Source of the DNA: Halosimplex salinum
GTDB lineage: Archaea > Halobacteriota > Halobacteria > Halobacteriales > Haloarculaceae
DNA: 64,000 nt
Reading direction: 5' to 3'
Assembly: GCF_003730195.1 (NCBI RefSeq)
Contig: NZ_QWGG01000001.1
Coordinates: forward strand, 744,001-808,000
Shown in pieces: positions 47,695 through 56,055 of the stretch (its first letter is position 1; each line of letters starts with the position of its first letter). The notes under the pieces are model-generated. The model was given only the letters and a program-made list of their open reading frames with translations. It ran no database searches and had not been told where the DNA came from. A program made the translations under genes and the position numbers.

Positions 47695-48051
47695 GCTAAC
47701 TATACGCACCCCAATTCATAAAACTCACCTCCAGACGATCCGCGGGAGACTGAGAAAATTGCATAGTGCGTGCCGTCTAATCACCACTACCTCAGCAGTG
47801 TTCCCCGACTGGAAGATGTCGACATGCCCTCATCACCGGTAGCGCACGTTTGTCGGTATGTGTCTCCCTCTCTGAGCGTCTAAATCGCTTGTTTTCGGCA
47901 CACTGAAAGTCCCAGAATTGGTTTATTGCGCCGTATTGCGTCACGGATTTCAACTATCTGAACAAGGTCGAACGGCGCGAGAGCCGGTAACCGAGACGGA
48001 CCCGGGCGCGGCAGCCGAAGTTCCTTATGTGCTCCGGCGGGAATCGGGGGT
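47695..48051. other. Intergenic: islet right end and lrp promoter
   Basis: These 357 bases carry the promoter of the regulator (near 47713-47723, minus strand), AT-rich DNA without a gene, the right copy of the duplicated chorismate mutase 3' end (47959-47989), and a CCTTATGT TATA-like element about 27 bases before the lrp ATG. Confidence 0.6.
47959..47989 (+). repeat. Direct repeat, right copy
   Basis: Matches the last codons of the chorismate mutase gene at 44966-44996 (two substitutions) but has no gene upstream. It stands just before the lrp-type gene, so it is probably the original gene end displaced by an insertion between the copies. Confidence 0.85.
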
Positions 48052-48516
48052 ATGGCCGACTACGAACTCGACGAGATCGACCGGGAGATCCTCGCCGCGC
48101 TGCAGGAGGACGCGCGGAGCCTCTCTTCGGGCGAGATCGCCGAGCGGACCGACGCCTCGTCGAGCACGGTTCGAAAGCGCATCCAGCGGCTCGAATCGGA
48201 GGGGGTCGTCAAGGGGTACAGCGCCGACGTCGACTACCAGAAGTCCGGCTACCCGCTCAGGATGCTGCTGTTCTGCACCGCCCCCATCCCGGAGCGGGGC
48301 GAACGCATCGACGACATTCTCGACATCCCCGGCGTCGTCTCGGTCCAGGAACTGGTCACGGGCGAACAGAACCTCCTCGTGACGGCCGTCGGCGAGTCCG
48401 ACGACGACATCACGCCGGTGGCACAGGAACTGCTCGACATGGGGCTGACCGTCGCCGACGAGGTACTCGTCCGCAGCCATGAGACGACGCCGTTCGACGA
48501 CTTCTCCTCGGAGTAA
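48052..48516 (+). CDS. Lrp/AsnC-family regulator
   Basis: A 154-residue regulator. The N-terminal HTH is DEIDREILAALQEDARSLSSGEIAERTDASSSTVRKRIQRLESEGVVKGYSADVDYQ, followed by an RAM/Lrp ligand domain (RMLLFCTAPIPERGERIDDILDIPGVVSVQELVTGEQNLLVTAVGESDDDI). It could respond to an amino acid or another small ligand. Its nearest downstream neighbours are the dab genes 515 bases away, on the same strand. Confidence 0.9.
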   Translation: MADYELDEIDREILAALQEDARSLSSGEIAERTDASSSTVRKRIQRLESEGVVKGYSADVDYQKSGYPLRMLLFCTAPIPERGERIDDILDIPGVVSVQELVTGEQNLLVTAVGESDDDITPVAQELLDMGLTVADEVLVRSHETTPFDDFSSE

Positions 48517-48872
48517 CTCCGGCGACCGCACCCACCACACGCTTCCCGTACCTCTGCGTTCTCGACGGGCCGTCTCTCGGAGCGACCGATCCACGTTGGC
48601 GTCGCACTCGGGACGAACGAAGCGTCGAACGAACCGTCGAACGAGCTCGGAAACTGACCACCGTCCCCGATCGAACTGTTCGTTCGTCGCCCATCGGATA
48701 CCGAACTGTTCGCAAGACGGGTTCCCGTACCTCGATCTCCCGGCTCGGAACTAGCGCGACTACGTTCCCGACAGGGGCCCCAGAACGCACCGGAGAATGT
48801 CTGAGTCGACCGTTTCGGCCAGCACCGCACTCCGTCGGCAGCCCTTCCAGAGTGGGATCGTCCGTAATGACC
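48517..48872. other. Intergenic before dab promoter
   Basis: No gene is supported in these 356 bases. The first half has short inverted pieces (CGAACGAACCGTCGAACG type). The AT content rises toward the dab promoter. Confidence 0.4.
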
Positions 48873-48947
48873 ATAATGTTCTTTCATACAATTAGTTCGA
48901 ACGAATCGGTAAGATCGAAGTCTATAATAACCAGATTGTTCTACAGT
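48873..48947 (+). promoter_or_regulatory. dabB promoter with palindromic operator candidate
   Basis: A perfect interrupted palindrome ATT-A-GTTCGAAC-G-AAT (48891-48906) lies 15 bases before the TATA box TCTATAATAACC (48921-48932). Flanking it are two similar words, ATAATGTTCTTTCAT (48873-48887) and AGATTGTTCTACAGT (48933-48947). The start codon is about 100 bases downstream of the TATA box, giving an unusual leader of roughly 75 bases. Confidence 0.5.
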
Positions 48948-49031
48948 GGTGTAACGACGACCAGTTCGTCTACGGCCCCGCCGGGGGTTCGGCGTCGTGG
49001 CAGCGACACGGACTGGTCGAGGACCCAAACG

Positions 49032-50519
49032 ATGACAGGCCAACCGAGAGCGAACGACGCCGTACAGCCCCTCGAGGAACCGGATTCGACGGCTTCGTTC
49101 GTTCCCCGAGCGACGACGGCGACGGTCTGGGTCCTCTTTCTCCTCGGCGTGGGGGCGCTCGCCCTGTCGGTGACGAACGGGTTCGAGTGGGGAATCGCGG
49201 GCGTGCTCGTCTACGACGGACTGACCGCGGTGATGTGGGTCGTGGTCACCTTCTTCAGCGGGATCGTCCACAGTTACTCCCGCCGCTACATGGCCGGCGA
49301 CCGCCACCTCGACGCCTTCTTCGCCCGTATCTTCGCCTTCACGCTCGTCGTCATGACGACGACCGCGGCCGACCACGTCGCGCTGTTCGCGGGGGCGTGG
49401 CTGGCGATGGGACTCCTCATGGCGTCGCTCATCGGCCACGTCCGCGACTGGCCGCAGGCACAGGCCGCAGCGAGGACCGCTCGCCGGTACTTCCTCGCCA
49501 GTAGCGGACTGCTGGCGGTCGGCCTGACCGCGCTGGTCTGGGCGACGGGCACGACCGGTCTCTCCGGTATCCTCGGACAGGTCGAGACCGTCCCACAGAC
49601 CGTCGCGCTCTTCGCCGCGGGCAGCGTCTTCCTCGCGGCGATCATCCAGTCGGCGCTGTTCCCGTTCCACTCGTGGCTGCTGTCGTCCATGACGGCGCCC
49701 ACCCCGGCGTCGGCGCTGATGCACGCCGGCTTCGTCAACGCGGGCGGCATCCTGCTCACCCGGTTCGCGCCGCTGTTCGCCGGCGAGACCGCCCTCATGT
49801 CGGCTATCGTCCTCGTCGGCGCGGTCAGCGCCCTGCTCGGACAGGCGCTGTTGCTCGTCCAGACCGACGTGAAGCGCAAACTCGGCGCCTCGACCATGGC
49901 CCAGATGGGCTTCATGATACTCCAGTGCGGGCTCGGCTTCTTCGCCGCCGCCATCACCCACCTCGTCCTCCACGGGTTCTACAAGGCGTACCTGTTCCTC
50001 TCGTCGGGCGAGGCGGTCGAGCAGACGACCCCGAAGGGCGCGAAACGGAATCGGCTCACCGCCCCGGGCGCCGTCGTCAGCCTGCTCACGGCGCTGGGTG
50101 GCGGCGCCCTGTTCGCCGTCCTCACCGGGAAGGGAATGCACCCGGACAGCGGGCTCTTCCTGGCGTTCGTCGTCGTCCTGACGACCATGCACGCGGCCCG
50201 GGACATCTTCCGACGGTCGACCCTCTCGCCGTCGGTCAGGCTCCTGAGCGTCCCGCTCGTGGTCCTGACCGCTATCGGCGGGTACGCCCTGCTCTTCAAC
50301 GCCATCTCGACCGTGATCGCGGGCGCGCCGATGGCGACGGCACCGACCGACCTGACGGTCGTCCACGTCGGCGTCGCCGGTCTGTTCGCCCTGTCGTATC
50401 TGGCGACGGAGCTCGGCTGGCACCGCTCCAGCAAGCGGCTCTACGTCGCCCTGCTCAACCGCTCGCAGCCTGATCCGGAGACGATTCTCACCCGCAAGGA
50501 GGACTACAATGACGCTTGA
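49032..50519 (+). CDS. dabB: DabB, NuoL/MrpA-like proton-channel subunit
   Basis: A 495-residue membrane protein with about 12-13 helices. It belongs to the proton-translocating antiporter-like family: FFSGIVHSYSRRYMAGDRHLD, SALFPFHSWLLSSMTAPTPASALMHAGFVNAGGILLTRF and QTDVKRKLGASTMAQMGFMILQCGLGFFAAAITHLVLHGFYKAYLFLSSG keep the conserved Lys, His and Glu of this fold. In characterised DAB systems DabB passes protons to power DabA. The ATG at 49032 is preferred over upstream in-frame starts lacking a family match. It overlaps dabA by 11 bases. Confidence 0.9.
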   Translation: MTGQPRANDAVQPLEEPDSTASFVPRATTATVWVLFLLGVGALALSVTNGFEWGIAGVLVYDGLTAVMWVVVTFFSGIVHSYSRRYMAGDRHLDAFFARIFAFTLVVMTTTAADHVALFAGAWLAMGLLMASLIGHVRDWPQAQAAARTARRYFLASSGLLAVGLTALVWATGTTGLSGILGQVETVPQTVALFAAGSVFLAAIIQSALFPFHSWLLSSMTAPTPASALMHAGFVNAGGILLTRFAPLFAGETALMSAIVLVGAVSALLGQALLLVQTDVKRKLGASTMAQMGFMILQCGLGFFAAAITHLVLHGFYKAYLFLSSGEAVEQTTPKGAKRNRLTAPGAVVSLLTALGGGALFAVLTGKGMHPDSGLFLAFVVVLTTMHAARDIFRRSTLSPSVRLLSVPLVVLTAIGGYALLFNAISTVIAGAPMATAPTDLTVVHVGVAGLFALSYLATELGWHRSSKRLYVALLNRSQPDPETILTRKEDYNDA

Positions 50520-52959
50520 ACGCGCCACCGTCGAAGACAGCATCGAACGCGCGGCCGACACCGTCGGCTCGGTGTGGCCGCTGCACTCCTTCGTCACCGC
50601 CAACCCCCTCTCGGGGTTCGAGGACCGACCGTTCCACCGCGCGGTCGAGGAAGCCGAGGAACTGTTCGGCGGTCGCGGCTACCCCCGACCCTCGGTGTTC
50701 CGTCAGGCGTGGGAGCAAGGCCGGATCGACCCGGACGTGCTGGGCGCGGAACTCGACGCCCACGGCGTCTCCGGCGAGCCCGAGGCCCTGCTCGACGAGA
50801 TGGCCACGGCCGAGTCCGAGCGCGACGGCCAGGGCGAGACCGACCACGCGACCGAGACGGTCGACCGCGTGCTCTCGAAGTGGCTCGCCGCGTTCCTCGA
50901 CCAGGGACAGGCCCAGTGGTCGATGCCCGACCGCGAGCGCGGCTTCTACGCCGCCTGGCGCGCACTCGCCCCGTACGACGACGAGGTGCCCGGCTGCGAC
51001 GACCCCGCCGACCTCCCAGAGACGCCGACGGCGGCGGTGGAGGCCGCCCTCTCGGACCACCCGCAGGGGCGCTGGGAGGACATCTTCGAGCACCATCTCG
51101 CCGCGCTCCCGGGGTGGACCGGGTTCGTCAAACAGCGGGCCGACGACGACGACGCCGGGCCGTGGCAGGAAGCGTACCCCATCTCGCTGCTGGAGTACCT
51201 CGCGGTGCGCCTGACCCTGGCGGACCTGCTCGACGCGTCCGTCGAACCCGACGAGGGGCTGGCCGCCGTGTCCGACGGGGTGGCCGCTGGGTCCAACGGG
51301 GTGGCCACCGGGTCCGGTGAGACCGACGACGGTGACGTTCCCCTGTCGGAGATCTGGCTGACCGCGTGGGAGAACAGCTACCGCGACCGCCTGCTCGACG
51401 GCATCGACCGGACGGTCACGGAGCCCGCCACCGAGAACGACGAGCGCCCGGCCGCACAGCTCGTCTTCTGTATCGACACCCGCTCGGAGGTCGTCCGCCG
51501 TCACATCGAGGCCGCCGGCCCGTACGAGACCCACGGGTACGCGGGCTTCTTCGGCGTCCCGATGCGCTATCAGGGGTACGACTCGGACGTAGATATCGAC
51601 GCCTGTCCCCCCATCGTCGACCCGCAACACCGCATCACCGACCGCCCGGAACACGACCATCGCGACGACAGGGCTGCCCACGACCGGTGGACCGACCTGG
51701 CCTCGGCCGGTCGGAAGCACCTCAAGTCGCTCAAGACCAACGTGGCCGCCGCGTTCACCTTCGTCGAGGGCGGCGGGAGCGCCTACGGCGCGGCGATGGC
51801 CGCGCGGACGCTGCTCCCGTCGGCCGTCGCCGACCTCTCGGGCGCCGTCGACGACAGGGTCCCGTCTCAGGGCGAGTTCTGCGAGCCGACGATCGACCGT
51901 CAGTGCGACGGCGACGTCGGCGACCTCCCGAAGGGGATGACGCTGGCGGAGAAGGTCTCCTGCGCCGAGACCGCCTTCGAGCTGATGGGCTGGGAGCAGT
52001 TCTCCCGATTGGTCGTCTTCGCGGGCCACGCGAGCGAGACGACGAACAACCCGTTCGACTCGAGCCTCGACTGCGGCGCCTGCGCCGGCAACCCCGGCGG
52101 CCCGAACGCTCGCGTCCTCGCCGCCATCTGCAACGACGAGGCGGTCAGGGCCGAACTCCGCGAGCGCGGGTTCGACGTCCCCTCGGACACCGTCTTCCTC
52201 GCCGGCGAGCACAACACGACCACCGACGAGATCACGCTGTTCGACGGGCACGTCCCCGAGAGCCACCGCGAGGACCTCGAACGCCTCCGTGACGACCTCG
52301 AAGCGGCGCGGGCCGCCGCGGCGGCCGAGCGCACGGAGTCGATGGCGGGCGGCGACGCCGGGGACGCCGTCCGCGAGACGGAGCGCCGGGCGGCCGACTG
52401 GGCGGAGACCCGCCCCGAGTGGGGGCTGGCCGGCAACGCCTCGTTCGTCGTCGGTCCGCGAGCGCTGACCGAGGACGAGAACCTCGACGGCCGGGCGTTC
52501 CTGCACTCCTACGACTGGTCGACCGACCCCGGCGGGGAGGCGCTGGAGGCCATAATGACGGGGCCGCTGGTGGTCACCCAGTGGATCAACGACCAGTACT
52601 ACTTCGCGACGGTGGACAACGCCGTCTACGGGAGTGGCTCGAAGGTCACGCAGAACCCGCGCGGCAACGTCGGCGTCGTGCAGGGCAACGGCGGCGACCT
52701 GATGACCGGGCTGCCGCTCCAGTCCCTCAAGGTCGACGATGAACAGCCGTACCACCAGCCGCTCCGTCTCACGGCGGTCATCCACGCGCCCATCGAGCGC
52801 GTCAACGATATCATCGGTCGCCACGAGGAGGTCGCGACGCTGCTCGACAACGGCTGGATATCGCTGACGGTCGTCGACCCCGAACAGGACAACGACGCGT
52901 TCCACTACCAGGGCGACCTGGAGTGGGAGCCGACGCTAGCGAAGCCGCTCGTCCACTGA
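50509..52959 (+). CDS. dabA: DabA (DUF2309), inorganic-carbon uptake subunit
   Basis: An 816-residue protein of the DUF2309/DabA family, a beta-carbonic-anhydrase-like membrane-associated enzyme that hydrates CO2 directionally. The predicted zinc and active-site residues line up with family: Cys321 and Asp323 in VFCIDTR, His507 in FAGHAS and Cys522 in DCGACAGN; the 15-residue His-Cys spacing equals that known for the bacterial protein. No membrane helix is needed, as DabB anchors it. An Asp/Gly-rich repeat region (about residues 245-270) is haloarchaeal. Confidence 0.94.
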   Translation: MTLERATVEDSIERAADTVGSVWPLHSFVTANPLSGFEDRPFHRAVEEAEELFGGRGYPRPSVFRQAWEQGRIDPDVLGAELDAHGVSGEPEALLDEMATAESERDGQGETDHATETVDRVLSKWLAAFLDQGQAQWSMPDRERGFYAAWRALAPYDDEVPGCDDPADLPETPTAAVEAALSDHPQGRWEDIFEHHLAALPGWTGFVKQRADDDDAGPWQEAYPISLLEYLAVRLTLADLLDASVEPDEGLAAVSDGVAAGSNGVATGSGETDDGDVPLSEIWLTAWENSYRDRLLDGIDRTVTEPATENDERPAAQLVFCIDTRSEVVRRHIEAAGPYETHGYAGFFGVPMRYQGYDSDVDIDACPPIVDPQHRITDRPEHDHRDDRAAHDRWTDLASAGRKHLKSLKTNVAAAFTFVEGGGSAYGAAMAARTLLPSAVADLSGAVDDRVPSQGEFCEPTIDRQCDGDVGDLPKGMTLAEKVSCAETAFELMGWEQFSRLVVFAGHASETTNNPFDSSLDCGACAGNPGGPNARVLAAICNDEAVRAELRERGFDVPSDTVFLAGEHNTTTDEITLFDGHVPESHREDLERLRDDLEAARAAAAAERTESMAGGDAGDAVRETERRAADWAETRPEWGLAGNASFVVGPRALTEDENLDGRAFLHSYDWSTDPGGEALEAIMTGPLVVTQWINDQYYFATVDNAVYGSGSKVTQNPRGNVGVVQGNGGDLMTGLPLQSLKVDDEQPYHQPLRLTAVIHAPIERVNDIIGRHEEVATLLDNGWISLTVVDPEQDNDAFHYQGDLEWEPTLAKPLVH

Positions 52960-53012
52960 CCGGGCGTCCGACCCGGTTTGCCGGGCCGGGTCAGTACCGT
53001 TCGCCGCGCGGG

Positions 53013-53693
53013 TCAGTACTCCCAGATCCGGTCGATGCGCCCCTCGACGTCCGGGTGGGCGTCGCGGAGCGCGTCGACGTCGTGCACGCCGTCGACGTTG
53101 ACCACGTGTATCTCCCCACGCTCGCCGTCGTACACGTCCTGGAAGTCGTACACCGCGCCGACGACGTCAACCGACTCGGGCACCCCCTCGCTCTCGACGA
53201 GCGACTCGACCTGCTGGTCGACGTTGTACTCGACGAGGTGGTTGACGGCCGCGCCCTCGTCGAGGCCGTCGGGGAGCGCCGCGATGCCAGGCGCGACGTG
53301 TGGCTCCAGCAGGTCGAGACAGTGTTCGATCCCGGGCGGTTCGGAGAGCTCGCCGGTCAGCTTCCGGTACGTCGCGGTCACGGCGCCACAGCCGGTGTGC
53401 CCGACGACGACGGCGGTCTCGGTCCCGGTGTGGGCGATGGGGTAGAGCACGTCTCCCGAGAGCTCCTCGCCGGTGTCGCCCCGCTGGACGACGCGGTTGC
53501 CGATGTTGCCGACCGTGAAGAGGTGACCGGGCTGTTCGTTACCCCACATCTGGTCCTGGAGGACCCGCGAGTCCGAGCAACAGACCGTGACCGCAGCGGG
53601 GTGCTGGGCGTCCTGTACGTCGTCGAAGCGGTCAGCGAACTGTTCGGCGTGTCGCGCGTTCCCCTCCAGCAGTTCGACGACCGTCCGATCCAT
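53013..53693 (-). CDS. Beta-class carbonic anhydrase
   Basis: A 226-residue enzyme interconverting CO2 and bicarbonate. Zinc ligands are Cys39 in CCSDSR, His99 and Cys102 in GHTGCGA; Asp41/Arg43 form the catalytic dyad. No signal peptide is seen. It is convergent with dabA 53 bases away, so it probably works on the same CO2/bicarbonate pool. Confidence 0.93.
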   Translation of the reverse strand: MDRTVVELLEGNARHAEQFADRFDDVQDAQHPAAVTVCCSDSRVLQDQMWGNEQPGHLFTVGNIGNRVVQRGDTGEELSGDVLYPIAHTGTETAVVVGHTGCGAVTATYRKLTGELSEPPGIEHCLDLLEPHVAPGIAALPDGLDEGAAVNHLVEYNVDQQVESLVESEGVPESVDVVGAVYDFQDVYDGERGEIHVVNVDGVHDVDALRDAHPDVEGRIDRIWEY

Positions 53694-53783: not shown

Positions 53784-54596
53784 TCAGCGGTTCGTGTCGA
53801 ACCACTCGACGGCGAAGTCGACGAGTTCGGGCTGGCCGACCAGGACCGTCTCGGCGTCGCCCACGCGTCCCGTCTCGACCGCGTCCGCCCGTTCGGCCTC
53901 GAAGTCCGAGCCGAGCGAGACGAAGTCCGACGTGTCTCGCCTGATGTCCTCGTAGGACACTCGGACGCTATCGCCGTCCGCGACGACGGGGACCTCGTTC
54001 CTGTGGGTCTCCTTCGGGAACTCGGCGCGGTACTCGGCGAGGTGGATCGACGTGTTCGTCCCCCAGTCGGTGCCGAGCATCAGCACGTCGCCGTCGCGGT
54101 CGTACACCGACGCGAGCGGGGAGTGCTCGCCGAGGCCGTAGTCGTAGTGGTGGTCGGCGACGACCTCGTCGGCGTCGGCGCCCCACGCCGCGAACGAGGT
54201 CGTCGGATGCTGACTCCTGACGACGTCGGGATAGGCGCGGAAACACTCGGCGATCACACCCATCCCTCTGGTCGGCGTGCTCTCGGGTCGGAACGGCGGT
54301 CGTTCGGCCTCGATGGTCTCGACCCAGTCGTCGGGGACCGGCGGGTTCGACCACACCGACGGATCGGTGTACTGGCCGGTGTGAGCCGGCATCACGAGCG
54401 TCCCGGCCTCGGTGACTGCCTCGCGGAGCGCGTCGACGACGGCCTGCGCGTCGCCACACACCCAGCCGAGCGCGCTCAGCGACGAGTGGACGAGCAGTGT
54501 GTCGCCCGGCGCGACGCCGAGTTCGCGGAGGTCGTCGACTATCGTCGAGACCGTCACGGGGGCCTCGACCCTATCGACCGCTGCGCGTTCTCCCAT
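53784..54596 (-). CDS. AAC(3)-family N-acetyltransferase
   Basis: A 270-residue protein from the ATG at 54596. Features are GDTLLVHSSLSALGWVCGDAQAVVDALREAVTEAGTLVMPAHTGQYTDPSVWSN, PTRGMGVIAECFRAYPDVVRSQHPTTSFAAWG and GTDWGTNTSIHLAEY. Members acetylate aminoglycosides, but environmental homologues often have other amine substrates. An open frame extending upstream past 54596 is a shadow of the HVO_1808-type gene. Confidence 0.87.
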   Translation of the reverse strand: MGERAAVDRVEAPVTVSTIVDDLRELGVAPGDTLLVHSSLSALGWVCGDAQAVVDALREAVTEAGTLVMPAHTGQYTDPSVWSNPPVPDDWVETIEAERPPFRPESTPTRGMGVIAECFRAYPDVVRSQHPTTSFAAWGADADEVVADHHYDYGLGEHSPLASVYDRDGDVLMLGTDWGTNTSIHLAEYRAEFPKETHRNEVPVVADGDSVRVSYEDIRRDTSDFVSLGSDFEAERADAVETGRVGDAETVLVGQPELVDFAVEWFDTNR

Positions 54597-54663
54597 GGGC
54601 GGCGTTCGAGCAGGCCGGATTTGAGTGTTACGTGGCGGTGAGTGCCCGTGGCACCGAGTGTCG

Positions 54664-56055
54664 TCAGTTCGTCGCGGAGACGGTGACGTTCGCGTTCGAC
54701 CCGGTGGCCGCCGCCGTCTCGACGAACCCGTCGTCACCGGCGAAGACGGCGACCGTCTGGGAGTCGACGCGCACGAGGCGGTACGCGGTGTCGTCGCTCT
54801 CGGCTCGCTCGGCCCGCCAGGACTCGAACGCGTCGGCGAACTCGTCGGCCTCGCCGGCGTCGTCCCAGCGGAGCGCCCAGGCGATGCCGAGCCTGCTGTG
54901 GTTCTCGCCGTGACGCATGCGGACGGCGTGATCACTCCCCCACCCCTCGGCCGCCGTCGACGCGACCGAGTGGTTCAGTTCGGCGCGGAGCATCGTCCGC
55001 ACGACGATCTCGCCTTTGGTGTCGTGGTGGCGGGACGCGACCGACCAGTTCCCGGTCCCGTTCACCGAGAGGTCGAGGTCGAGTTCCGGCTCTTCGTCCG
55101 GTGTGTAGCCGTGGATCAGCTGTTCGCCGGTGACCGGCGTCGGCGTCGACTCGTCGTAGAGCCAGGAGACGTTGTGCGGGCTCTCGACCCGCGAGTCGAT
55201 GTACTGTGCGCCGTAGAGGTAGCGCGCGCGGAAGAGCCGCCGGCCGGCCGGCCCCTCCTCGTACTGCTCTTCGAGTTCCTGCGTCTGGTTCCACTCGGTG
55301 TCCATGTACCGGTCGACGTAGGCGTCGGTGACGTACACCGACGCGCCCTCGACGAGACCGGCGGCGACCTGCTGGGAGTCGGTGTCGTCGACGAACTCGC
55401 CGAAGCCGTCGATGTCGATCACGTCGCTGTGGAACTGCATCCAGTGGACGTACTCGTGGGCGAGCAGCGTCCGCTCCTGCCGTTCGCTCGCGTTCTTCGG
55501 CATCACGACGATCCGGCGGGTGGTGGCCGACCCGTGGTAGACGCTCGTGTCGATGAACTCCTCGCCGTAGCCGAACGTGTCGTAGAACGGGTCCGACGCG
55601 AGCTGGTCGTTGTAGCGTTCGAGCGCCGGCATCTCGTCGCGGACGTACACCGTCGGCGGGTCTACGTCCGTCCCGAGCAGTTCCTGTACGTCGGCGTAGA
55701 CGGCGTCCTCGTCCACTGAGAGGTTCCCGCCGCGGACTGCGACGTCCGGCGCGTCGGCGGACCCGGGCGTCTCGGTCGGCGTCGGCGTGTCGGTCGAGCG
55801 CTCCGTCGGTGACGGAGTCACGGTCGGCTCGTCCGTCGAAGCGGGCGTGGCCGCGTCTGTCGGCGTGGCCGTCGGTGTGTCGGCGGCCGTCGAGTCCGCC
55901 GGGTCGGCCGTCGCGTCCGCCTGCGTCGCAGTCGGTTCGTCGGTCGATGCGTCGGTCTGGGTCGGCGCCGCCGTGTCCTGTCCGCCGAGGAGGCTCCCGC
56001 AGCCGGCGAGCAGGAGGAGGGCGACGACGCCGAGGGTAGCGACTGTTTCTCTCAT
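54664..56055 (-). CDS. HVO_1808-type surface lipoprotein with HExxH motif
   Basis: A 463-residue secreted protein. The N-terminus is a lipoprotein signal with lipobox LLLAGCGS, followed by a Thr/Asp/Pro-rich stalk (residues about 28-100). The domain contains HEYVHWMQ, a HExxH zinc-protease-type motif, near residue 198, and LVEGASVYVTDAY with a downstream Glu that may be the third ligand. The stalk suits O-glycosylation. It is probably a membrane-anchored extracellular protease or protease-like protein. Confidence 0.85.
   Translation of the reverse strand: MRETVATLGVVALLLLAGCGSLLGGQDTAAPTQTDASTDEPTATQADATADPADSTAADTPTATPTDAATPASTDEPTVTPSPTERSTDTPTPTETPGSADAPDVAVRGGNLSVDEDAVYADVQELLGTDVDPPTVYVRDEMPALERYNDQLASDPFYDTFGYGEEFIDTSVYHGSATTRRIVVMPKNASERQERTLLAHEYVHWMQFHSDVIDIDGFGEFVDDTDSQQVAAGLVEGASVYVTDAYVDRYMDTEWNQTQELEEQYEEGPAGRRLFRARYLYGAQYIDSRVESPHNVSWLYDESTPTPVTGEQLIHGYTPDEEPELDLDLSVNGTGNWSVASRHHDTKGEIVVRTMLRAELNHSVASTAAEGWGSDHAVRMRHGENHSRLGIAWALRWDDAGEADEFADAFESWRAERAESDDTAYRLVRVDSQTVAVFAGDDGFVETAAATGSNANVTVSATN

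Follow-up and report, generated by a model that had tools for sequence, protein, structure and literature searches.

What does a heterotrophic, non-photosynthetic haloarchaeon do with a DAB-type inorganic-carbon complex, and which of the neighbouring genes belong with it? A locus of Halosimplex salinum raises this question. It lies in a 64,000-nucleotide stretch of DNA, hereafter the window, taken from an assembly of 5.07 Mb in 28 contigs (G000). A preliminary description of the stretch had read an Lrp-type regulator gene, dabB, dabA and a beta-carbonic anhydrase (CA) gene as one inorganic-carbon module. The genes are arranged as follows:

48052-48516, forward strand: lrp, 154 amino acids, regulator with an AsnC-type HTH (Pfam HTH_24/HTH_AsnC)
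49032 (ATG)-50519 (stop), forward strand: dabB, 495 amino acids, NuoL/Mrp-like membrane subunit (PF00361, E 1e-39; PF00662)
50509-52959, forward strand: dabA, 816 amino acids, zinc-dependent beta-CA-like subunit with a transmembrane finger (PF10070, E=1.3e-268)
53013-53693, reverse strand: beta-carbonic anhydrase, 226 amino acids (PF00484, E=6e-27), with C39, D41, R43, H99 and C102 by sequence

This arrangement is real and not a chance pattern. As first described, the lrp gene (48052-48516, forward) lies upstream of dabBA, dabB and dabA overlap by 11 bases (50509-50519), and the CA gene is convergent, the two stops being separated by the 53 bases from 52960 to 53012. The dabB reading frame is open up to a GTG at 48852; since the protein sequence is conserved among Halosimplex only from the ATG at 49032 onwards, this ATG is the probable start codon.

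DabA matches H. neapolitanus DabA2 (PDB 9rd0_A) end to end (residues 4-808; phmmer E 6.9e-116), and its closest named relatives are the DabA proteins of Halosimplex pelagicum, Halosimplex aquaticum and Halosimplex carlsbadense (80-81%). Cryo-EM of DabA2 established C351, H524 and C539 as zinc ligands, a D353-R355 dyad, Glu444 in the finger, R653 and W656 as gates and an unusual Leu658 (PMC13144422). The Cys321/Asp323/His507/Cys522 set pointed out in the preliminary description, with its 15-residue His-Cys spacing, aligns with C351/D353/H524/C539. R325 and E420 correspond to R355 and Glu444, and the catalysis-linked residues R635, W638 and L640 to R653, W656 and Leu658. C321, D323, R325, the finger Glu E420, H507 and C522 are kept in all 129 distinct DabA proteins compared, so that the zinc residues are not misplaced, and L640, a Leu where beta-CAs have Gln or His, is kept in 127. 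The best PDB match of DabB is DabB2 (9rd0_B, E 1.6e-37), and its half-channel (proton-path) residues S227, H231, K281, S287, H310, H314 and K318 are kept in 131/131 haloarchaeal DabB proteins. At the position of K235 in the DAB2 DabB, the window has Q206 (Gln in 129 of the 131), and neither alignment register places an acidic residue at the D185 position of the window DabB, which is Ser or Gly depending on the register. Bacterial relatives mostly carry Lys with Asp or Glu at these ion-pair positions, with variation in Phaeobacter (Ala) and Nocardia (Arg). The Lys235/Asp185 terminal ion pair is a tuning feature and not a defining one for the DAB family. Since haloarchaeal DabB proteins lack the Lys/Asp pair of DAB2 and NuoL, their coupling may differ from that of DAB2. 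Judged by sequence, dabB and dabA are bona fide DAB/DAC complex genes.

We detected DabA in 234 of 378 good Halobacteria genomes, including 75 of the 96 good genomes of the window's family. It is also found in plasmid records, on megaplasmids of Haloarcula and other haloarchaea, where it is labelled only 'proton-conducting transporter' and 'DUF2309'. A DAB system as such is not new for haloarchaea: Haloferax volcanii HVO_2410/HVO_2411 were annotated by homology as dabAB in 2021 (PMC8305020), and DACs of heterotrophic Halobacteria, of the same protein family and from the same class, were mentioned in a 2024 review (PMC10880623). Neither text contains the word 'Lrp' or mentions an operator or a CA linkage. 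A search of the non-subscription literature with the Haloferax locus tags, aimed at experimental work on a haloarchaeal DAB, returned the annotation paper only. What appears to be new is that nearly all relatives share the same private regulator gene and a three-part control site.

A few dab loci depart from this picture. On a contig of the Bradymonadaceae MAG LUM.15 (L150 4863-11736), a haloarchaeal-type lrp-dabB-dabA-CA set encodes a DabA that is 61% identical; the contig looks bacterial, with an HflX-like GTPase gene upstream, and either transfer of the whole cassette or misbinning is possible. In the Pseudomonadota plasmid loci that we viewed, an adjacent LysR regulator on the opposite strand takes the place of Lrp. 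On plasmids of Nocardia and Salinivibrio (L238 1-739 and L242 5505-6476), dab has in its vicinity a gene for threonylcarbamoyladenylate synthase, an enzyme that consumes bicarbonate. Decaying dabA remnants occur at L215 6010-6501 (genome G006) and at G088:C88:12679-12792, and these genomes have lost the lrp orthologue too.

Across 80 regions of the window's family and 80 named loci, the core of the locus is lrp-dabB-dabA, and lrp adjoins dabB in 154 of the 160. The Lrp, not the CA, is, therefore, the constant partner of dabBA. An lrp orthologue (74-95% identity) is present in 99/104 genomes with DabA versus 1/42 without (p ~1e-29, ignoring phylogeny; because the genomes are related, such p-values and counts overstate independence). 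The five genomes with a DabA match and no lrp orthologue carry DabA fragments only. The regulator is also the more conserved protein, with a mean column identity of 85% among 43 orthologues, versus 71% for six DabA proteins. It contains a winged HTH of the AsnC type (PF13412 and PF13404, both above cut-off). Its C-terminus has no Pfam match to the RAM domain; in an AF2 model of low confidence (mean pLDDT 59.5), used for the order of secondary-structure elements and the fold family only, the order beta-alpha-beta-beta-alpha-beta fits that domain, and Foldseek matches the model to Lrp/AsnC structures (143 columns, E 2e-8).

The alignment of Halosimplex lrp-dabB spacers revealed near-invariant blocks inside an otherwise unalignable spacer. 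These form a candidate operator in which three copies of an 11-bp site, CCANNNTGTTC, surround the presumed TATA box of dabB, copies D and P in forward and copy M in inverted orientation. The control features upstream of lrp and dabB are:

48013-48029, forward strand: lrp promoter block AGCCGAAGTTCCTTATG, identical at all 17 columns among six Halosimplex sequences and some 25 bases ahead of the lrp ATG
48871-48881, forward strand: site D, CCATAATGTTC, 0 mismatches to CCANNNTGTTC
48872-48887, forward strand: 16-mer CATAAYGTTCTWTMAT, overlapping site D, unique in the genome
48899-48909, reverse strand: site M, GAACGAATCGG, inverted, 2 mismatches to CCANNNTGTTC
48922-48930, forward strand: putative dabB TATA box, CTATAATAA, between M and P, kept in Halosimplex and across families
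48931-48941, forward strand: site P, CCAGATTGTTC, 0 mismatches to CCANNNTGTTC, directly 3' of the TATA box

The lrp promoter is probably of the leaderless type. Sites M and P constitute an inverted repeat around the TATA box. The k-mer TAATGTTC is present in 65 of 126 distinct loci (0.4 expected). Scanning for the 11-bp site, we retrieved the M+P pair in 114 of 125 distinct dabB upstream regions, versus 4.1 in shuffles, and D+M+P in 95 of them, versus 0.5. Spacing is nearly fixed, the M-P offset being 32 bases in 112/114 loci, including the window, and the D-M offset 28-29 bases in 93/95. In 52 genomes of the family the 16-mer CATAAYGTTCTWTMAT is present in exactly one copy, which in all 52 falls within the lrp-dabA interval; dab-less genomes of the family have no copy, and a reversed-pattern control also gave 0. 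This genome-wide scan covered one family with the exact 16-mer, so weaker second Lrp targets are possible. Throughout 1.13 Mb of dab regions, site pairs with <=2 mismatches are nearly confined to the operator (palindromes being scored on both strands). The suggestion in the preliminary description that the upstream Lrp could be a dedicated switch has, thus, gained considerably in strength from the co-occurrence and from the conserved candidate operator. Archaeal Lrp proteins are known to occupy groups of sites spaced by two or three helical turns, and LrpA of P. furiosus blocks RNA polymerase from the TATA box's downstream edge (PMC2995911). By co-occurrence, neighbourhood and conservation, Lrp would be the protein that binds D, M and P.

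Haloarchaea also contain a second, divergent DAB (type 2), with a DabA about 57% identical, at L103 5794-9119, L104, L105 and L107 (genomes G015, G028, G023 and G032, respectively). Its dabB and dabA genes lie back to back, with neither lrp nor such an operator at these loci. A cyanase gene (PF02560) and a formate/nitrite transporter gene follow in three of the four, and a nitrite reductase-like gene is found beside all four. As cyanase uses up bicarbonate, this neighbourhood resembles the bacterial pairing of CA and cyanase. We rejected cyanase linkage as a general DAB role: only 10 of 392 genomes encode cyanase, and where it lies next to dab, this is always the rare type-2 form of a single genus.

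Regarding the fate of the bicarbonate, a search for the RuBisCO large subunit (PF00016) returned no match in the whole assembly, while the control search matched in Haloferax volcanii. The absence of RuBisCO genes first noted for the window, thus, extends to the genome, and RuBisCO-linked CO2 concentration is rejected. A search for carboxylases found a PEP carboxylase of the PF00311 type about 39 kb downstream of dab (C11:835504-838173), with the PF14010 type absent from the genome, and three biotin carboxyltransferases encoded elsewhere. Given the lack of RuBisCO, the PEP carboxylase, the three carboxyltransferases and a second, distant beta-CA on contig C22, we favour bicarbonate supply for anaplerosis and biosynthesis, a role already proposed in the preliminary description and one that these genes support.

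We consider it probable that the locus encodes a PMF-driven, CO2-hydrating complex that supplies biosynthetic carboxylases under a dedicated, single-target Lrp. DabB would sit in the membrane and DabA on the cytoplasmic face. On the model of the solved H. neapolitanus DAB2, the membrane potential would drive ions through DabB and the finger of DabA (E420), and this flow would open the buried zinc site of DabA, where CO2 would be hydrated one way to bicarbonate, to be released into the cytoplasm. Rather than the Calvin cycle, the consumers of this bicarbonate would be PEP carboxylase, biotin-dependent acyl-CoA carboxylases and further carboxylation steps of biosynthesis. The adjacent Lrp, with essentially one target, would set dabBA transcription through the three 11-bp sites, M and P lying on either side of the TATA box, at a distance of three helical turns, and D 28-29 bp upstream of M. 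Bound at P, which abuts the TATA box, it would block RNA polymerase, as the precedent of P. furiosus LrpA suggests (PMC2995911); bound at D and M, it could activate. A more specific proposal, which we advance only tentatively, is that this Lrp is a dedicated archaeal inorganic-carbon sensor with a single target, reading CO2/bicarbonate or a direct carboxylation product through a three-site operator present across most haloarchaeal families.

The place of the CA in this scheme bears on the first of the rival explanations, namely, that lrp, dabB, dabA and CA form one functional module in which a cytosolic CA works with DAB. The CA has both the CxDxR (C39 D41 R43) and HxxC (H99 C102) motifs, with PDB beta-CA matches at E 1.6e-14, and the four genes are contiguous in the window, as they are in five further genomes of Halosimplex. 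Moreover, CAs of different subfamilies and orientations recur next to dab: downstream and convergent in Halosimplex, G063/G065 and Natrialbaceae, downstream and co-directional in G114, Halospeciosus and several Haloferax, and divergent from lrp in Halorhabdus-type genomes and G118. Such recurrence is unlikely by chance, and mpsAB is immediately followed by a CA gene in S. sciuri, B. anthracis and B. subtilis (PMC8552792). However, 108 of 158 scored dab loci have no CA in their neighbourhood, and CA presence is independent of dab (92/104 genomes with dab versus 39/42 without; Fisher p=0.56). In the CA tree the dab-adjacent proteins do not form one clade, and the window CA groups with CAs encoded elsewhere in related genomes. 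In the site-pair scan of dab regions, the CA genes of Halosimplex had no operator ahead of them; outside this genus, a single CA gene was preceded by a weak match with 3 mismatches. In Halosimplex genome G092, lrp, dabB and dabA are deleted together and the CA is kept in its syntenic place; remnants similar to the 3' end of lrp and to its promoter block could be recognised by eye at the deletion site. A free CA would, in energetic terms, turn bicarbonate back to CO2, and CA co-expression brought no benefit in staphylococci (PMC8552792). A fixed DAB-CA module as a general rule is, therefore, rejected by synteny, the CA tree, co-occurrence, the operator scan and the natural deletion, and we regard joint function of the four genes in the window as unlikely. 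Of the expected dab-CA synteny, what stands is a linkage that recurs in different lineages, not a CA neighbour in most relatives. The CA is probably a housekeeping gene, located next to dab in Halosimplex and outside the regulated unit; the recurrent linkage of dab with unrelated CAs suggests a loose functional affinity.

The control of dabBA could also be read differently, with the three-site element bound by another factor, such as a particular TFB or another regulator, and lrp merely linked to it. We infer the binding of Lrp from sequence, Natrialbaceae lack the distal site D and retain the TATA-proximal part, and genome G120 has operator-like sites with lrp 54 kb away from dabA. Yet gains and losses of lrp and dabA coincide, type-2 loci without lrp show no such element, and semi-palindromic sites three turns apart around a TATA box are typical of archaeal Lrp proteins, which makes another factor improbable. 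We give about as little credence to DabAB being a Na+-coupled bicarbonate importer. Such a sodium bicarbonate cotransporter has been proposed for staphylococcal MpsAB (PMC8552792), and it would suit molar NaCl and the altered ion-pair residues of haloarchaeal DabB in a high-Na+ setting. Nevertheless, the zinc, Asp-Arg and finger Glu residues for CO2 hydration are kept in every DabA, the His, Lys and Ser residues of the proton path are unchanged, and DAB2 neither requires sodium nor rescues a Na+/H+ antiporter mutant (PMC13144422). More improbable still is a complex mainly for pH or ion homeostasis instead of carbon supply. The host is a heterotroph, DabB is NuoL/Mrp-like, and hydration would use the ion gradient and yield acid and base; however, when CO2 is limiting, CA-deficient E. 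coli is rescued by known DABs independently of pH (PMC13144422), and mpsAB mutants are CO2-dependent (PMC6689103).

Several further genes were observed near dab and CA. An AAC(3)-like N-acetyltransferase family gene (PF02522; window 53784-54935, reverse strand) adjoins the CA gene, and homologues also follow the CA in other Halosimplex genomes and in the dab-less G092. In 28 of the 80 family regions, lrp and dabB are separated by an amidohydrolase gene (PF01979; c3 family) of the opposite strand, for example at L067 2481-3497 (reverse strand); this gene is found in other families as well and is absent from the window. At L067 3645-4322, L089 3628-4323, L094 3628-4323, L154 and L166, a degenerate beta-CA-like gene is interposed between the amidohydrolase gene and dabB; its catalytic Asp-Arg pair appears to be lost, since CSMSDC or CSMSSC replaces CxDxR.

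Compared with H. neapolitanus DAB2/DAC (PDB 9rd0, 9rd8 and 9rd9; PMC13144422), the window complex is alike in its two subunits, in full-length DabA homology and in the zinc ligands, Asp-Arg dyad, finger Glu, gating Arg/Trp, hydrophobic Leu and DabB proton-path residues. It differs in having Q206 and a non-acidic residue in place of K235/D185, in belonging to a heterotroph without detectable RuBisCO and in its archaeal Lrp and operator. Staphylococcus aureus MpsAB and its relatives (PMC6689103, PMC8552792) likewise represent DAB-family inorganic-carbon supply in heterotrophs, with a CA downstream in some Firmicutes. However, MpsAB and CA rarely coexist in Firmicutes, whereas dab and CA usually do in the window's family (92/104), and the sodium coupling proposed for MpsAB is a further difference. 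Ss-LrpB, P. furiosus LrpA and Ptr2 (PMC2995911) resemble the window regulator in the Lrp fold predicted for it, in a gene beside the target and in clustered semi-palindromic sites two or three turns apart, one of them bordering the TATA box. Known archaeal Lrp proteins mostly act on their own gene or on amino-acid metabolism, unlike the one conserved set of sites at a CO2-hydration operon found here.

DAB pumps have been studied mostly in autotrophs and pathogens. In haloarchaea, dab is constantly accompanied by a regulator and by a control site that hardly varies, and not by a carboxylase or a CA, which makes inorganic-carbon regulation in heterotrophic archaea directly testable. Haloferax volcanii, with the same genes and good genetics, would be a suitable host, and haloarchaeal DabB, naturally devoid of the Lys/Asp pair, could serve to test the coupling model derived from the DAB2 structure.
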